A stretch of DNA of 8,028 nt, taken from the NCBI GenBank assembly GCA_021827885.1, contig JAKAUD010000187.1, forward strand, positions 1 through 8,028, given 5' to 3'. The notes below the pieces were generated by a model. It was not told where the DNA came from, searched no databases, and saw only the letters and a program-made list of their open reading frames with translations. The position numbers and the translations under genes are program-made. Source of the stretch: Thermoplasmata archaeon (GTDB lineage: Archaea; Thermoplasmatota; Thermoplasmata; Thermoplasmatales; Thermoplasmataceae). Positions 1-6,622 of the stretch are shown piece after piece; position 1 is the first letter of the stretch, and each line of letters begins with the position of its first letter.

Positions 1-8
1 CCGCAAAC

Positions 9-70
9 CGGAGGAACGGAAACCCCAGCTAATCGGAGGAATAGAGCTTCCGCTCCCCGATTAGCTTTCA
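9..70 (-). promoter_or_regulatory. Structured leader repeat, copy 1 (cut by the window edge)
   Basis: First of two direct copies; the other is at 3048-3124. Two long blocks are shared: 9-30 (CGGAGGAACG then GAAACCCCAGCT) and 47-59 (GCTTCCGCTCCCC then G). Read on the minus strand, the arm AGCTAATCGG (66-57) pairs perfectly with CCGATTAGCT (36-27). A second arm, GGGGAGCGGAAGC (58-46), can pair with GTTTCCGTTCCTC (21-9) using three G-U wobbles. The winged-helix gene's TGA (70-68) lies at its 5' edge. The part that hides the ribosome-binding site in copy 2 would fall left of base 1, so the gene it leads into is not visible. A weak TATA-like TTAAAG lies about 30 bases upstream, inside the winged-helix gene. 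Confidence 0.6.
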
Positions 71-331
71 GAATTCCAAAACAGATTCTTCTTTAAGTAA
101 TGTCTTCTTGATCCTGTAGGAACAGATCAGAGTGTTTCCCTTGGTTCTGCATCGCCTGTCGAGATATCCCTGCTCATACATTTCCCTGAGGATCCAAGCG
201 GCTCTTCCCTGTGAGATATTGAGCTGAGCTGCTATCCTTGCGGAACGAAAAGCAAAATTTGGGTACTGGCAAAGATGTTCCATAATGGTCTTCCACTCAT
301 CCGGTACCTTATGGGAAAGAAGAAATTCTAT
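68..331 (-). CDS. Winged-helix DNA-binding protein, copy A (start unresolved)
   Basis: Likely a small DNA-binding regulator. The helix pattern DEWKTIMEHLCQYP, then SARIAAQL, then a recognition-like segment SQGRAAWILREMYEQGYLDR, then a basic wing RTKGNTLICSYRIKK fits a winged helix-turn-helix. The first ATG (283) falls inside helix 1, so starting there would cut the fold. The frame stays similar to copy B further upstream (IEFL, then V, then EW), back to an ATA at 331 that overlaps the TAG of the 50-aa gene as ATAG. No ATG, GTG or TTG occurs in this frame between 283 and the next upstream stop. Either translation starts at ATA (GGAGG lies 9 bases before it), or ribosomes shift -1 from the 50-aa frame at A-AAA. 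From 331 the protein is 87 aa; from 283 it is 71. Last gene of the operon; its stop touches the leader repeat. Confidence 0.7.
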   Translation of the reverse strand: MEFLLSHKVPDEWKTIMEHLCQYPNFAFRSARIAAQLNISQGRAAWILREMYEQGYLDRRCRTKGNTLICSYRIKKTLLKEESVLEF

Positions 332-761: not shown

Positions 762-1586
762 TCAGTCCCCTCCCCTGTATGGTTTCTCTATCCTGGTCTT
801 GGCTTCATCAACCGATATATCAGGAGGATTCTGATAGAATGGCATCATTTTCTGTTTTGTCTCACGCTTGACACTTTCCGTAAGGATCCTTGGGGAAAAC
901 TGCTTGAAAAAGTCTGTTGGCGCTTCTGATATGTTCTGATTGCCCAGGAATTCTTTCCTGAACGTTTCATAGTCTATTCTTAAGAAATATCTGTCAACAA
1001 TGTCATTTTCAGATGGTACAAGCCAGGTTTCAGGTTCACTTGGGATGAGTGTATTGTCCTTTCCAATGTGCCTTCTAAGTATTCTAAATGTGCCATTTGT
1101 TGCCTTGTCTGTTAACTTGAATCCCTTATCGGTCTCTTCTATCTCGTAGGCATGGATTCTCTTCTCGGCCATGAACTGTTTTACAATTGGAATCGGATCA
1201 ATGGGATCTCTTTTCAGTACCCTGAAAATGCCAGACTGAACCAGGGACTTGAGATACCAGGCATGGCAGTCTGTTTCCAGACTGATGTCAAGCCTTATTC
1301 TTGCTTTGTCTTCAACTCTTGCCTTAACTGATTTCCATTCACTTTCTAAAATTGATAACTTTTGTCTTGTCTCAAATATGTCATTGTCCAGCTGTCTTAG
1401 CCTGGCTTCATCGGATGTTTGACTTTTGAGTGCCCAGAGGGACCTGTTAACATAGGCTGAGACATTGAAGTGTGAGCCCAAACCATCGATGAAATCTTCC
1501 ACTTCTGAGTCGATTGTTATCTGAAGCCTCCCTTTCCTCTTCAGTCCTTCTGGTGGTCTTCCCGGTTTTGAATTCTTTTTGCTCAT
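762..1586 (-). CDS. Ribbon-helix-helix regulator with coiled coil (274 aa)
   Basis: Probable DNA-binding protein. The N-terminus is basic with an AT-hook-like KPGRPPEG. It is followed by a ribbon-helix-helix pattern: strand GRLQITID (about 19-26), helix SEVEDFIDGLGSHF, and helix VSAYVNRSLWALK (about 42-54). Residues about 58-95 (ARLRQLDNDIFETRQKLSIL onward) look like a coiled coil. The C-terminal 180 residues, with GTFRILRRHIGKDN and WLVPSENDIVDRYFLRIDY, match nothing I recognise. At 274 aa it is far longer than simple ribbon-helix-helix repressors (50-100 aa), so the tail probably has its own role. It starts at ATG 1586 after GGAGGTCTCCGGGGT. A 33-bp palindrome 65 bases upstream suggests autoregulation. 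This gene and its promoter are absent from copy B. A plasmid copy-control or partition role is possible but not shown. Confidence 0.7.
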   Translation of the reverse strand: MSKKNSKPGRPPEGLKRKGRLQITIDSEVEDFIDGLGSHFNVSAYVNRSLWALKSQTSDEARLRQLDNDIFETRQKLSILESEWKSVKARVEDKARIRLDISLETDCHAWYLKSLVQSGIFRVLKRDPIDPIPIVKQFMAEKRIHAYEIEETDKGFKLTDKATNGTFRILRRHIGKDNTLIPSEPETWLVPSENDIVDRYFLRIDYETFRKEFLGNQNISEAPTDFFKQFSPRILTESVKRETKQKMMPFYQNPPDISVDEAKTRIEKPYRGGD

Positions 1587-2297: not shown

Positions 2298-2424
2298 GAT
2301 GTTCCTCCGGGAAGTGCATCAGGTTATCTAACGCCCGGTCGGAGCATACCATGTAGTCCAGGTTGTGCCCGACCGTTTGTATTAGCCCCTTTCCCTGGGG
2401 CTTCCTAAAATCCAGTTTTTTCAT
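2281..2424 (-). CDS. 47-aa protein heading operon A
   Basis: A short frame, MKKLDFRKPQGKGL then IQTVGHNLDYMVCSDRALDN then LMHFPEEHHVTFR. It has a GGAGGT site 10 bases upstream that lies in the last codons of the preceding gene. Support comes from copy B, where the last 22 codons recur (CSDRALDTLMHFSEEYHVTFR). The differences there include silent third- and first-position changes, and the frame ends at the same TGA inside the 42-aa gene. Copy B lacks the first 25 codons. Family not recognised; the product looks soluble, slightly basic at the N-terminus, with His/Asp-rich ends. The overlap with the 42-aa gene suggests coupled translation. The N-terminal half is not independently supported. Confidence 0.55.
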   Translation of the reverse strand: MKKLDFRKPQGKGLIQTVGHNLDYMVCSDRALDNLMHFPEEHHVTFR

Positions 2425-2431
2425 ATACTTT

Positions 2432-3040
2432 CTAACCTCCGAAAATCACAATGCCGGAAATCAGGTAACCTACCTGTTCACCTGCAAATGGACCAAGGAA
2501 AGAGAACTGGCTATTTCCATATGCAAATACATTGAAACTGTAGGAAGTGGTGTTTCCTGCCATTCTAACCATCAGGTATGAGGACTGATTGCCTGTGATG
2601 TACTGAGGCTGCAGCTGCACATATTCTGTTGATTCATTATTCAATGAAACATTGAGAAATGGCTGGAAATTGGTTACATTTGTACCAAATCCAAGGCTCT
2701 CATTCGCCGTGACCGGATAGCCGAAAAGTATCGTCAGATTGGATACTGAGAAATCGTTCAGCTCTCCCTGTGTCAGATTTGTCAGAATGTAGCTCACACT
2801 TTCATTGTACGGCATGTCATACGTGGTAGTGCCATTGACAGAGGCAAATGCAATACCTGATCCGGTGGCATTGTAGATGAACTATGTCTGTGTGTCTCCC
2901 TTCAGTACAGGAGAATGATCATTCAAAGATACCAGGCTGTGCCCTATCAGTGATGATAAGAATAAGGCCATGATAACTGCAACAATGCCAACAGCCAGGG
3001 CAAAAATGCCTCGTTTTCCCTTTGATTTAGCGGTTTCCAT
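2432..3040 (-). pseudogene. Membrane-anchored extracellular protein with in-frame TAG
   Basis: A 202-codon frame from ATG 3040, interrupted by TAG at 2884-2882 (codon 53). The N-terminus is METAKSKGKR followed by one long hydrophobic helix (GIFALAVGIVAVIMALFLSS), so the rest should lie outside the cell. The exterior part has many N-glycosylation sequons (NAT, NGT, NES, NLT, NVT, NVS, NQS, NTT). The C-terminus, GYLISGIVIFGG, is hydrophobic and stops abruptly, perhaps a cut second helix. The KGKRG-hydrophobic start resembles archaeal pilin-type signal peptides, but I would not press this. GGAGGAA precedes the ATG and is hidden in the leader hairpin. The reading frame and sequon density continue unchanged across the TAG, so it is a recent nonsense change (CAG to TAG would do it) or readthrough. 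The downstream ATG at 2815 would give a protein without the anchor. Confidence 0.7.
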
Positions 3041-3047
3041 TATAAGT

Positions 3048-3124
3048 TTCCTCCGCTGATCGGAGGAACGGAAACCCCAGCTTATCGGGTTCGAATATGG
3101 CTTCCGCTCCCCGTTAAGCTTTCA
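3048..3124 (-). promoter_or_regulatory. Structured leader repeat, copy 2: candidate RNA switch
   Basis: Reading 3124 to 3048 on the minus strand, three stems are possible. P1 pairs AGCTTAACGGG (3120-3110) with CCCGATAAGCT (3089-3079), one mismatch. P2 pairs GGGGAGCGGAAGC (3112-3100) with GTTTCCGTTCCTC (3075-3063), 13 pairs including three G-U. P3 pairs TTCCTCCG (3068-3061) with CGGAGGAA (3055-3048), eight perfect pairs around ATCAG, covering the ribosome-binding site of the gene at 3040. P2 shares six bases with P3 and interleaves with P1, so P1+P3 (site hidden) and P2 (site free) exclude each other. The G-U pairs occur only on the minus-strand RNA. A TATA box places the transcript start at the 5' edge of the repeat. 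No known riboswitch class is recognised. Confidence 0.6.
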
Positions 3125-3142
3125 AATCTTAAAATACGAGGT

Positions 3143-3150
3143 TATTTAAA
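3143..3150 (-). promoter_or_regulatory. TATA box TTTAAATA for the leader and the 3040 gene
   Basis: On the minus strand TTTAAATA (3150-3143) matches the archaeal TATA consensus. With the usual spacing, transcription would begin near 3120, which is the first pairing base of the leader repeat. The box overlaps the last codons of the doubtful 39-codon frame. Confidence 0.6.
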
Positions 3151-3265
3151 TATGGTTTAGGCAACTTTCTAAGTTACTGGTTCCGCGAAGGTACGAGAAG
3201 TATGACAAGTCCATACCCAGAATGCTATAGAAAATGTCCATGATTAGATCCGAGGCATCTTCCAT
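3146..3265 (-). CDS. Possible 39-aa small protein
   Basis: An ATG at 3265, four bases after the stop of the four-helix membrane protein, opens a frame that begins MEDASDLIMDIFYSILGMDL and ends SYLRGTSN then LESCLNHI. There is no good ribosome-binding site, and the frame ends inside the TATA box of the next transcript. Composition is protein-like, but 40 open codons are not rare by chance. No second copy is present to compare with. Confidence 0.25.
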   Translation of the reverse strand: MEDASDLIMDIFYSILGMDLSYFSYLRGTSNLESCLNHI

Positions 3266-3667: not shown

Positions 3668-5044
3668 CTAGCAGTATTCGATAATCTCGTTTATTGCCAC
3701 ATATAACTCATACAACAAGAATGCCGTTAGCGCTGTGTAAAATACAATGAGTACAAGAGTGAGACCTCCACTACCGATTATTGTAGCACCTTCTGCTATG
3801 AGTCCAGCAGCAGTACCGAAATACAATGCCCAAGCCTCCAGGCAGGCCCAAAGATTGTAATCATACACAATAGCTAACGAGTGACCAACAACCAAGTCTG
3901 ATACGTTTTGAGGGACCAGTCCAATGAATTCCCTGAAAGCGCTGGAGAGATCACCGTAATACCCATCAAACGTTTGCAAACTGACGTTGCCTGAGTCCTT
4001 ATAGCGTGAAGAAAGGAGACTAATACCGTTTTGAATCCCTGACAATTGTTCTGCAACGGTACCTGTGAAGTTCTCAATCAAGACGTCACCGAGCCCAACG
4101 GGATTTGTTACGGGGCTCACATCTCCAATCAGCATCCCTGAATATAAGTCGCTCGTTTGGTTCAGGACCAGTGCGTATAGAATATTGACATTCCAGGTTG
4201 CTGTAGTCATATTGAAGTCAAGAAGTATTTCAGTTGTATTATTATATATCCCTCTTGAAACAGAAAGTGTTGAATTTTGACCATAATACATGATAGAGGT
4301 CGAATTTGTCAAATTATAGCTTTTCAGGGGAGTTGGATTATTTGGTGAGGAATAGTTGGTGGGCACGGTGATGTTTATGCTCGAAGGAGTGTTCATTACG
4401 TTTGTACTAAGGAAGACTATCGGTCTGATAACCTGTGTGTAAGATGCGGTAGAACTACTTCCGTCTATACTGTTTGCCATTACTGTAACGTTATAAACAC
4501 CAGACATATTAAATAAGTATGAAGTTCCACTTATCTTTGAACCATTGATAAAGTAAGATAAGCTTCCTGAATAGCCCTCCCAATTAACTGATGTGTTAAA
4601 ATACACTGCTTGACCTACGTAAGAGGGATTCGTTGAACTATTTACTGAGTTTATTTCTGGTGCCGGACCTGCATTCACGTGTTGCGTGTACGTTTTCGTT
4701 GAAGAGCCATAGTTATTAGATGCTTCTACCTCTACCGTAAATGACCCAACGAAATTAAATGTATAATTAACAGAAGTAGGTACGGGATTTGTCCCGTAAG
4801 GGCCACTGTTATAGGACGCAATAAGGGTGCCGTTGACGTACCATGCAATGCCGTGAATAAGTGTGCCAAAATCAACTGAGGCGGAAAATTGAACAGTCTG
4901 TGATTCGATAGATGGATTAGGATTCCCGGTTACAGAGTTGATAATTGGAGCAGGTCCAGTAACGACGATGTTATTCTTGGCCTGCACTTGGCTTTGCCCG
5001 ATGTCCCTTACTTCAATGTTGAAGACTATCCCTAGGCCAGCCAC
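3668..5044 (-). CDS. PKD-domain surface protein with C-terminal membrane helices
   Basis: Probable cell-surface glycoprotein. Two PKD/Ig-like domains follow the N-terminus: about residues 32-127 (PIINSVTGNPNPSIESQTV, then YVNG, then FTVEVEASNNYGSS) and about 130-208 (EINSVNSSTNPSYVGQAVYF, then VYNVTVMANSIDGSS). Each has the typical opening proline/valine pattern and the closing VTV.A.N..G motif. A region without recognised domains (210-390) is crowded with N-x-S/T sequons, and about 50 hydrophobic residues near the C-terminus form two helices. The first canonical start is GTG 5044, giving 458 aa. However, the same frame continues upstream with SNKYTILIASFAALIIVV, an obvious membrane anchor or signal, up to a TGA at 5116-5114, with no start codon. 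An ATG at 5117 is one base out of frame. The true start is damaged or unusual. Function inferred from domains only: adhesion or S-layer association. Confidence 0.75.
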   Translation of the reverse strand: MAGLGIVFNIEVRDIGQSQVQAKNNIVVTGPAPIINSVTGNPNPSIESQTVQFSASVDFGTLIHGIAWYVNGTLIASYNSGPYGTNPVPTSVNYTFNFVGSFTVEVEASNNYGSSTKTYTQHVNAGPAPEINSVNSSTNPSYVGQAVYFNTSVNWEGYSGSLSYFINGSKISGTSYLFNMSGVYNVTVMANSIDGSSSTASYTQVIRPIVFLSTNVMNTPSSINITVPTNYSSPNNPTPLKSYNLTNSTSIMYYGQNSTLSVSRGIYNNTTEILLDFNMTTATWNVNILYALVLNQTSDLYSGMLIGDVSPVTNPVGLGDVLIENFTGTVAEQLSGIQNGISLLSSRYKDSGNVSLQTFDGYYGDLSSAFREFIGLVPQNVSDLVVGHSLAIVYDYNLWACLEAWALYFGTAAGLIAEGATIIGSGGLTLVLIVFYTALTAFLLYELYVAINEIIEYC

Positions 5045-6396: not shown

Positions 6397-6521
6397 TGAG
6401 CGACCTCCTCCAGGAAGAACTCTAACAAAGAACTAACTTCATCAGGCGTCGGTTCAAGCTTCCTTTCTCTCCAGAATTGCGAAAGAAACGCCTTCTTTTC
6501 TGCTTCACCTGAAGGTAACAT
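6393..6521 (-). CDS. Conserved 42-aa helical protein, copy B
   Basis: Product begins MLPSGEAEKKAFLSQFWRER and ends EVSSLLEFFLEEVAQ; same length, start, GGAGGAA site and stop/start overlap as the gene at 2169-2297. Differences are nearly all conservative (R/K, E/D) apart from Leu25 to Thr. This is the best-conserved member of the operon, so it is probably central to whatever the unit does. With the upstream gene truncated, it may now be the first intact gene of operon B; no clear promoter is visible upstream. Confidence 0.75.
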   Translation of the reverse strand: MLPSGEAEKKAFLSQFWRERKLEPTPDEVSSLLEFFLEEVAQ

Positions 6522-6572
6522 GGTATTCCTCCGAGAAGTGCATCAAGGTGTCTAACGCCCGGTCGGAGCATC
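6505..6572 (-). pseudogene. Remnant of the 47-aa gene, copy B
   Basis: The last 22 codons (CSDRALDTLMHFSEEYHVTFR, then TGA) match the 3' part of the frame at 2281-2424. Upstream of the TGC codon the DNA is unrelated, and the frame has no start codon before a TAA about 27 codons further on. The junction at about 6572 marks the right edge of the duplicated unit. Confidence 0.6.
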
Positions 6573-6622
6573 GGGTTAAATTCCCACAATCTTTCCTTTT
6601 GTAACGTACTGAGGGAAAGTAT

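Follow-up and report, generated by a model that had tools for sequence, protein, structure and literature searches.

A structured leader with mutually exclusive helices ahead of a membrane-protein gene in a Thermoplasmata archaeon: a candidate default-off translational switch

On the minus strand of a contig from a Thermoplasmata archaeon, the leader and start of a membrane-protein gene (2432..3040) carry switch-like pairing beyond chance, in which one strand can pair either with an upstream arm or with the ribosome-binding site and start codon of the gene. The whole stretch of DNA analysed, called here the window, is 8,028 nucleotides long. The pairings, their rarity and the order in which the states follow one another with RNA length at equilibrium are shown by computation. 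We propose, with about even confidence, that this leader is a translational switch that is off by default and whose helix P2 would be the open form, adopted in the nascent RNA or with the help of a partner.

The leader begins with the P1 hairpin (3120-3110 with 3089-3079, minus strand, as are all helices described here), in which 10 of 11 positions pair around an A-A mismatch at 3114/3085. P2, the opening helix (3112-3099 with 3076-3063), has 14 pairs; its 13-pair stretch 3112-3100/3075-3063 is fully paired (13/13), with three G-U among the 13. P3 (3068-3061 with 3055-3048, 8/8 pairs) closes the ribosome-binding site CGGAGGAA (3048..3055) over its GGAGGAA, and P4 (10 pairs, 3076-3067 with 3041-3032) encloses the start codon, the AUG lying inside the helix. 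P2 shares three bases with P1 (3112-3110) and six with P3 (3068-3063), and P3 and P4 overlap at bases 3068-3067. The strand 3076-3061 is complementary to the upstream arm 3112-3099, and it can also pair by one part with the ribosome-binding site and by another with the gene start; the arm 3112-3099 is an imitation, or decoy, of the start region. P1, the 13-pair P2 and P3 had been claimed in an earlier sequence-only reading of this DNA, which does not mention the P1 mismatch, and all three are present with the pair counts given above. Its further claim, that mutually exclusive stems hide or free the ribosome-binding site, agrees with both the pairing and the computed folds, which in this respect behave as those of a translational riboswitch. 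The closed state that it described, P1 with P3, holds as far as it goes and is incomplete, P4 and the first codons being required as well; P4 was absent from that reading and was found through competing-helix scoring. As read from the sequence, the leader (3120-3041) contains no ATG, GTG or TTG, for which reason a leader-peptide attenuator was rejected as a candidate, and none of the listed reading frames of at least 60 amino acids overlaps the leader.

The fold of the region 3124-3020 has an energy of -41.3 kcal/mol, a value reached by none of 200 shuffles (z -5.15; 0/60 and z -4.1 in a rerun). The 77 bases singled out by the sequence-only reading, folded alone, gave z -2.6 (3/200 shuffles) and, in the rerun, z -3.2 (0/60). 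The competition itself was scored in 95-base stretches as the best pair of helices competing for one strand. Of 3000 dinucleotide shuffles, 2 came up to the element's score of 22.8, as did one of 836 real windows of the sequence, which is the element itself. It should be noted that when z was computed for 454 windows (105 bases each, both strands), three fell below -4, stronger than the element in the same run; two of these belong to a second leader near 2300 and the third is at 1611. The scan window nearest to the element (start 3046, minus strand) reached only z -2.3, with the start codon outside it.

The states were then ordered by RNA length and temperature by equilibrium folding, a calculation that does not follow kinetics, ignores polymerase and ribosome footprints and uses folding tools without pseudoknots. 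P1 is dominant until the 3' end of the RNA reaches about 3068, and P2 takes over from 3064. With the 3' end between 3048 and 3038, the RNA at 37 °C is an about even mix (P2 0.29-0.54), the ribosome-binding site being 24-40% free; at 55 °C, P2 prevails (0.83-0.88) and 66-76% of the site is free. At 3038 and 55 °C, the ribosome-binding site is 66% and the AUG 99% free. Similarly, the 77-base leader alone divides about evenly between two states at 37 °C (P2 0.46 vs P3 0.54), P2 being ahead at 55 °C (0.88). For 3' ends from 3032 to 2850, P1, P3 and P4 form together at each length folded. It is P4 that makes the full-length RNA closed at equilibrium, and forcing the RNA into P2 costs about 9 kcal/mol relative to the closed form at 37 °C and about 6 at 55 °C. 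In the equilibrium model, the fold at intermediate length differs from that at full length, as in metastable leaders. When the leader was shuffled and the rest kept, none of 400 sequences opened and then closed and none closed both the site and the AUG, with 6 closing the ribosome-binding site alone and 7 the AUG alone.

A ribosome-binding site within a hairpin would also suit an RNA thermometer that opens through melting, a possibility raised by the sequence-only reading. The temperature series to 60 °C speaks against it, as the site of the full RNA is 2% free at 37 °C, 3% at 55 °C and still only 4% at 60 °C, with 12%, 14% and 14% for the AUG, and we regard a thermometer as extremely improbable.

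The gene downstream of the leader is broken in the window, with an in-frame stop at codon 53 and its C-terminal part missing. Among 15 aligned relatives, codon 53 is a sense codon in all 12 that cover the position, and the missing C-terminal part is present in 14. One search gave 18 relatives of this gene, some of them on contigs as long as 160 kb, and another 25, namely the same 18 and 7 more; there are intact genes among the relatives. On our reading, the relatives resemble proteins that have two membrane segments and an outer domain. The membrane protein matched no family above the cut-off and no solved relative, and its predicted fold was of low confidence (mean pLDDT 46, 10 sequences). 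The description of the element as the leader of a surface-protein gene stands in part: a gene is present, though broken in the window, and its relatives appear to be anchored in the membrane. One relative is the Thermoplasma acidophilum protein Q0KKZ0, which we take to be perhaps encoded on plasmid pTA1. This plasmid is mentioned in PMC3177234. The protein start METAKSKGKRG is constant (10/10) and had been considered as support for P4. This argument was set aside in favour of an explanation at the protein level, as the same residues are kept in 7 of 13 relatives at a place away from the start codon.

A second copy of the leader, copy 1, lies at 1..70 (70-1, minus strand), where it is cut by the window edge; it starts where the reading frame 283-68 ends, at the stop codon. 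The two copies are identical at 60 of 70 aligned bases, with one two-base gap. Only one of the 10 substitutions between them falls within the 28 P2 columns of the 70 (P 0.035), and it leaves a wobble pair, such that 14/14 P2 pairs are kept in copy 1, compared to 43-79% when one P2 arm is slid by 1 to 3 columns as a control. P2 shows no covariation, 13 of its 14 pairs being invariant between the copies. In P1, one pair is changed on both sides and still pairs, as in a compensatory change, another differs as G-C versus G-U between the copies, and a third is paired in copy 1 and mismatched in copy 2. A shuffle control on the two copies gave 241/500, two sequences carrying no statistical weight. 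Copy 1 passes from P1 to P2 at the same length as copy 2, with a stronger P1 (-17.7 vs -13.5) and a weaker P2 (-20.7 vs -23.0 in copy 2). At the window edge its P3 is partial and the P4 region lies outside the sequence; if the switch reading is true, the start of the gene after copy 1 should pair with GGTTTCCGTT.

These comparisons bear on a reading in which the leader is a fixed RNA clamp or a relic, where translation would simply be kept low, P2 would be a functionless intermediate and the copy would be decaying. Such a clamp would give the closed state computed between 37 and 60 °C for every length folded past 3032, the mismatch in P1 of copy 2 fits a relic, and the copy in the window would be decaying because its gene is broken. 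Against this, P2 is the best conserved part of the leader and its sole substitution still pairs; we consider a clamp or relic rather unlikely. Another reading is a translational switch that senses a ligand or protein, in which P1 and a P2 core (3109-3099/3076-3066) would make up a binding fold, possibly an H-type pseudoknot, that is stabilised by a molecule and leaves the site free. Between the copies, the P1 loop arm and the downstream strand that pairs with it differ at a single base, where pairing is kept; such constancy would be expected of a binding core. P1 and the P2 core abut without overlap, the sequence allowing both to form jointly. However, no Rfam family matches the leader, the broken downstream gene gives no clue to a ligand, and a pseudoknot with no spare base on the 5' side between its stems would probably be strained. 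A sensing switch of this kind is a possibility that we hold to be unlikely, though one to be taken seriously.

YTTAWA is a TATA consensus, and its position was read together with archaeal promoter spacing. A TATA-like box, TTTAAATA (3150-3143, minus strand), precedes copy 2; the YTTAWA core within it (3150-3145) stops 25 bases short of the first base of P1. At copy 1, a CTTAAA box (92..97, minus strand) ends 26 bases before P1 (position 66) and sits within the reading frame 283-68. The motif is scarce in the window, with 17 occurrences on both strands vs 25.3 from shuffles. A promoter role of both boxes is inferred, and the transcript would start at 3120, where P1 begins. The earlier proposal that the TATA box places the transcript start near the first base of P1 is strengthened by the matching spacing at copy 1 (25 vs 26).

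This matching distance also argues against a feature of the DNA itself, for instance a site of recombination or of a mobile element, that merely resembles an RNA leader, as do the complementarity to the gene's own start codon and the stronger folding of the minus strand. Such a feature would be in keeping with the presence of two copies amid diverged duplications, with copy 1 starting exactly at a stop codon and with the folding of the plus strand of the element (z -2.2, 0/60 shuffles). On balance it appears very unlikely.

The duplications lie around the membrane-protein gene and form two blocks that carry one gene set and have diverged to 77-78% identity (292-706/5527-6121 and 1904-2203/6128-6427), the second of which has no 274-aa gene and looks decayed. 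The 274-aa protein (762-1586, minus strand) has 33 relatives, none with a Pfam domain; in a 20-row alignment, this family has a near-constant C-terminal end and dissimilar N-terminal ends, as if these had been exchanged. Upstream of its gene, at 1651-1683, lies a 14-base inverted repeat (5-base spacer, 93% complementary), possibly an operator. A Pfam search of ten reading frames at E 0.001 gave two matches, an MFS transporter and a PKD domain (E 1.5e-08), the latter in a probable large surface protein (3668-5044, minus strand). The frame 283-68 encodes an HTH-like protein below the Pfam cut-off, and no tRNA gene was found in the window. We infer that the region is plasmid-like or mobile in origin. 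A second structured leader occupies 2298-2415 (minus strand), ahead of a 42-aa frame (2298-2174); its region (2420-2270) gave z -5.1 (0/200 shuffles), with a window-scan minimum of z -6.06, and no Rfam match. Its duplicate at 6519-6575 (minus strand), before the other copy of the 42-aa frame, retains the half with GCTCCGACCGGGCGTTAGA and GGAGGAA, and the wider surroundings of this duplicate fold no better than shuffles (z -0.45, 60/200).

Searches for known classes and for relatives returned little beyond the two copies. Rfam 15 gave 0 matches at gathering scores over the window and 0 up to E 5 in 2950-3200, in line with the earlier reading, which recognised no known class. In viral contigs, a long leader pattern had 0 matches, a 14-base pattern matched at least 120 stretches and was unspecific, and a pattern of the site plus start codons matched 102 stretches; protein-guided scans of viral contigs matched patterns in 5, 39 and 74 stretches, none of which was confirmed as a relative. 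A scan of genome contigs gave 5 matches, all with bacterial titles. A covariance model built from the two leader copies and run on the window with filters off recovered these copies at 104.3 and 97.6 bits, the next match (10.8 bits) being the other strand of copy 1. Applied to 85 of 227 loci, made up of the 5 genome-contig matches and 80 of the 102 site-plus-start stretches, with the last 22 and the 14-base-pattern set outside, this model gave 0 matches up to E 1. In plasmid and phage collections, neither the window nor any protein searched had a match, with the exception of the MFS transporter, which had one weak match on a Pantoea plasmid. Among the open-access papers that literature searches listed on archaeal or Thermoplasma riboswitches, thermometers and leaders, judged mostly by titles and the openings of abstracts, none described such a leader.

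Returning to the default-off switch, the effect on translation and the transient mode of opening are predictions of the model. The mRNA would begin with P1, some 80 bases ahead of the start codon. As the RNA lengthens, P1 would form first and P2 next, displacing P1, with the ribosome-binding site and the AUG then mostly accessible. Emergence of the first three codons would let P3 and P4 capture the site and the AUG and P1 re-form, such that the finished mRNA would be off. Translation would then take place on the nascent RNA, or for as long as a protein, an RNA, a small molecule or the ribosome holds P2. A transient open state in the nascent RNA is the simplest option for the trigger. In its strict form, the leader would be self-timed, with translation only on the nascent, transcription-coupled mRNA and a finished message that locks its own site and start codon; this we put forward tentatively, as a rather unlikely possibility. 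Several points count against the switch reading in general: two copies in a single window are a thin basis, copy 2 has a mismatch in P1, P2 shows no compensatory change, the gene is broken, the collections searched yielded no further copy, and at 37 °C no more than about half of the RNA is open once the ribosome-binding site has emerged. If the self-timed reading were true, the membrane protein of a plasmid-like element would be limited to early, coupled translation. A leader of 80 bases that combines a strong ribosome-binding site with a mimic of the start region and a length-dependent fold would be an unusual layer of control in Thermoplasma. If confirmed by reporters, it would make transcription-translation coupling testable in this lineage and could provide a regulatory part for acidophilic archaea.

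Several known systems share features with this leader. Translational riboswitches combine sequestor and anti-sequestor stems, SAM-II and preQ1-II riboswitches take H-type pseudoknot forms, and TPP riboswitches occur in Thermoplasma. Here too, a strand pairs with either the ribosome-binding site or an upstream arm, and the P2 core could, from its sequence, form a pseudoknot with the P1 loop as in SAM-II and preQ1-II. Unlike riboswitches, this leader has no Rfam match and no known ligand, and its closing stem spans the start codon into the third codon. The translational attenuators of the erm type carry a leader peptide; as in these, the segments pair in exclusive combinations, whereas the present leader lacks ATG, GTG and TTG. 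The hok mRNA and the leader of the MS2 maturation gene are bacterial metastable structures formed during transcription. For the aapA3 type I toxin mRNA, transient hairpins are proposed to close the site during transcription (PMC6733600). As in aapA3, hok and MS2, successive exclusive folds would govern access to the ribosome-binding site during RNA synthesis. By contrast with aapA3, the transient state predicted here is open and the final one closed, and unlike the bacterial metastable mRNAs, the leader is archaeal, precedes a membrane-protein gene and has no antisense RNA seen. According to the review PMC7531240, whose main text does not contain the word riboswitch, leaderless mRNAs are widely used in Thermoplasma. 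Set against the archaeal mRNAs treated there, an 80-base structured leader departs from the leaderless habit of Thermoplasma, and its strong SD motif before the AUG likens it to the SD-leadered messages.
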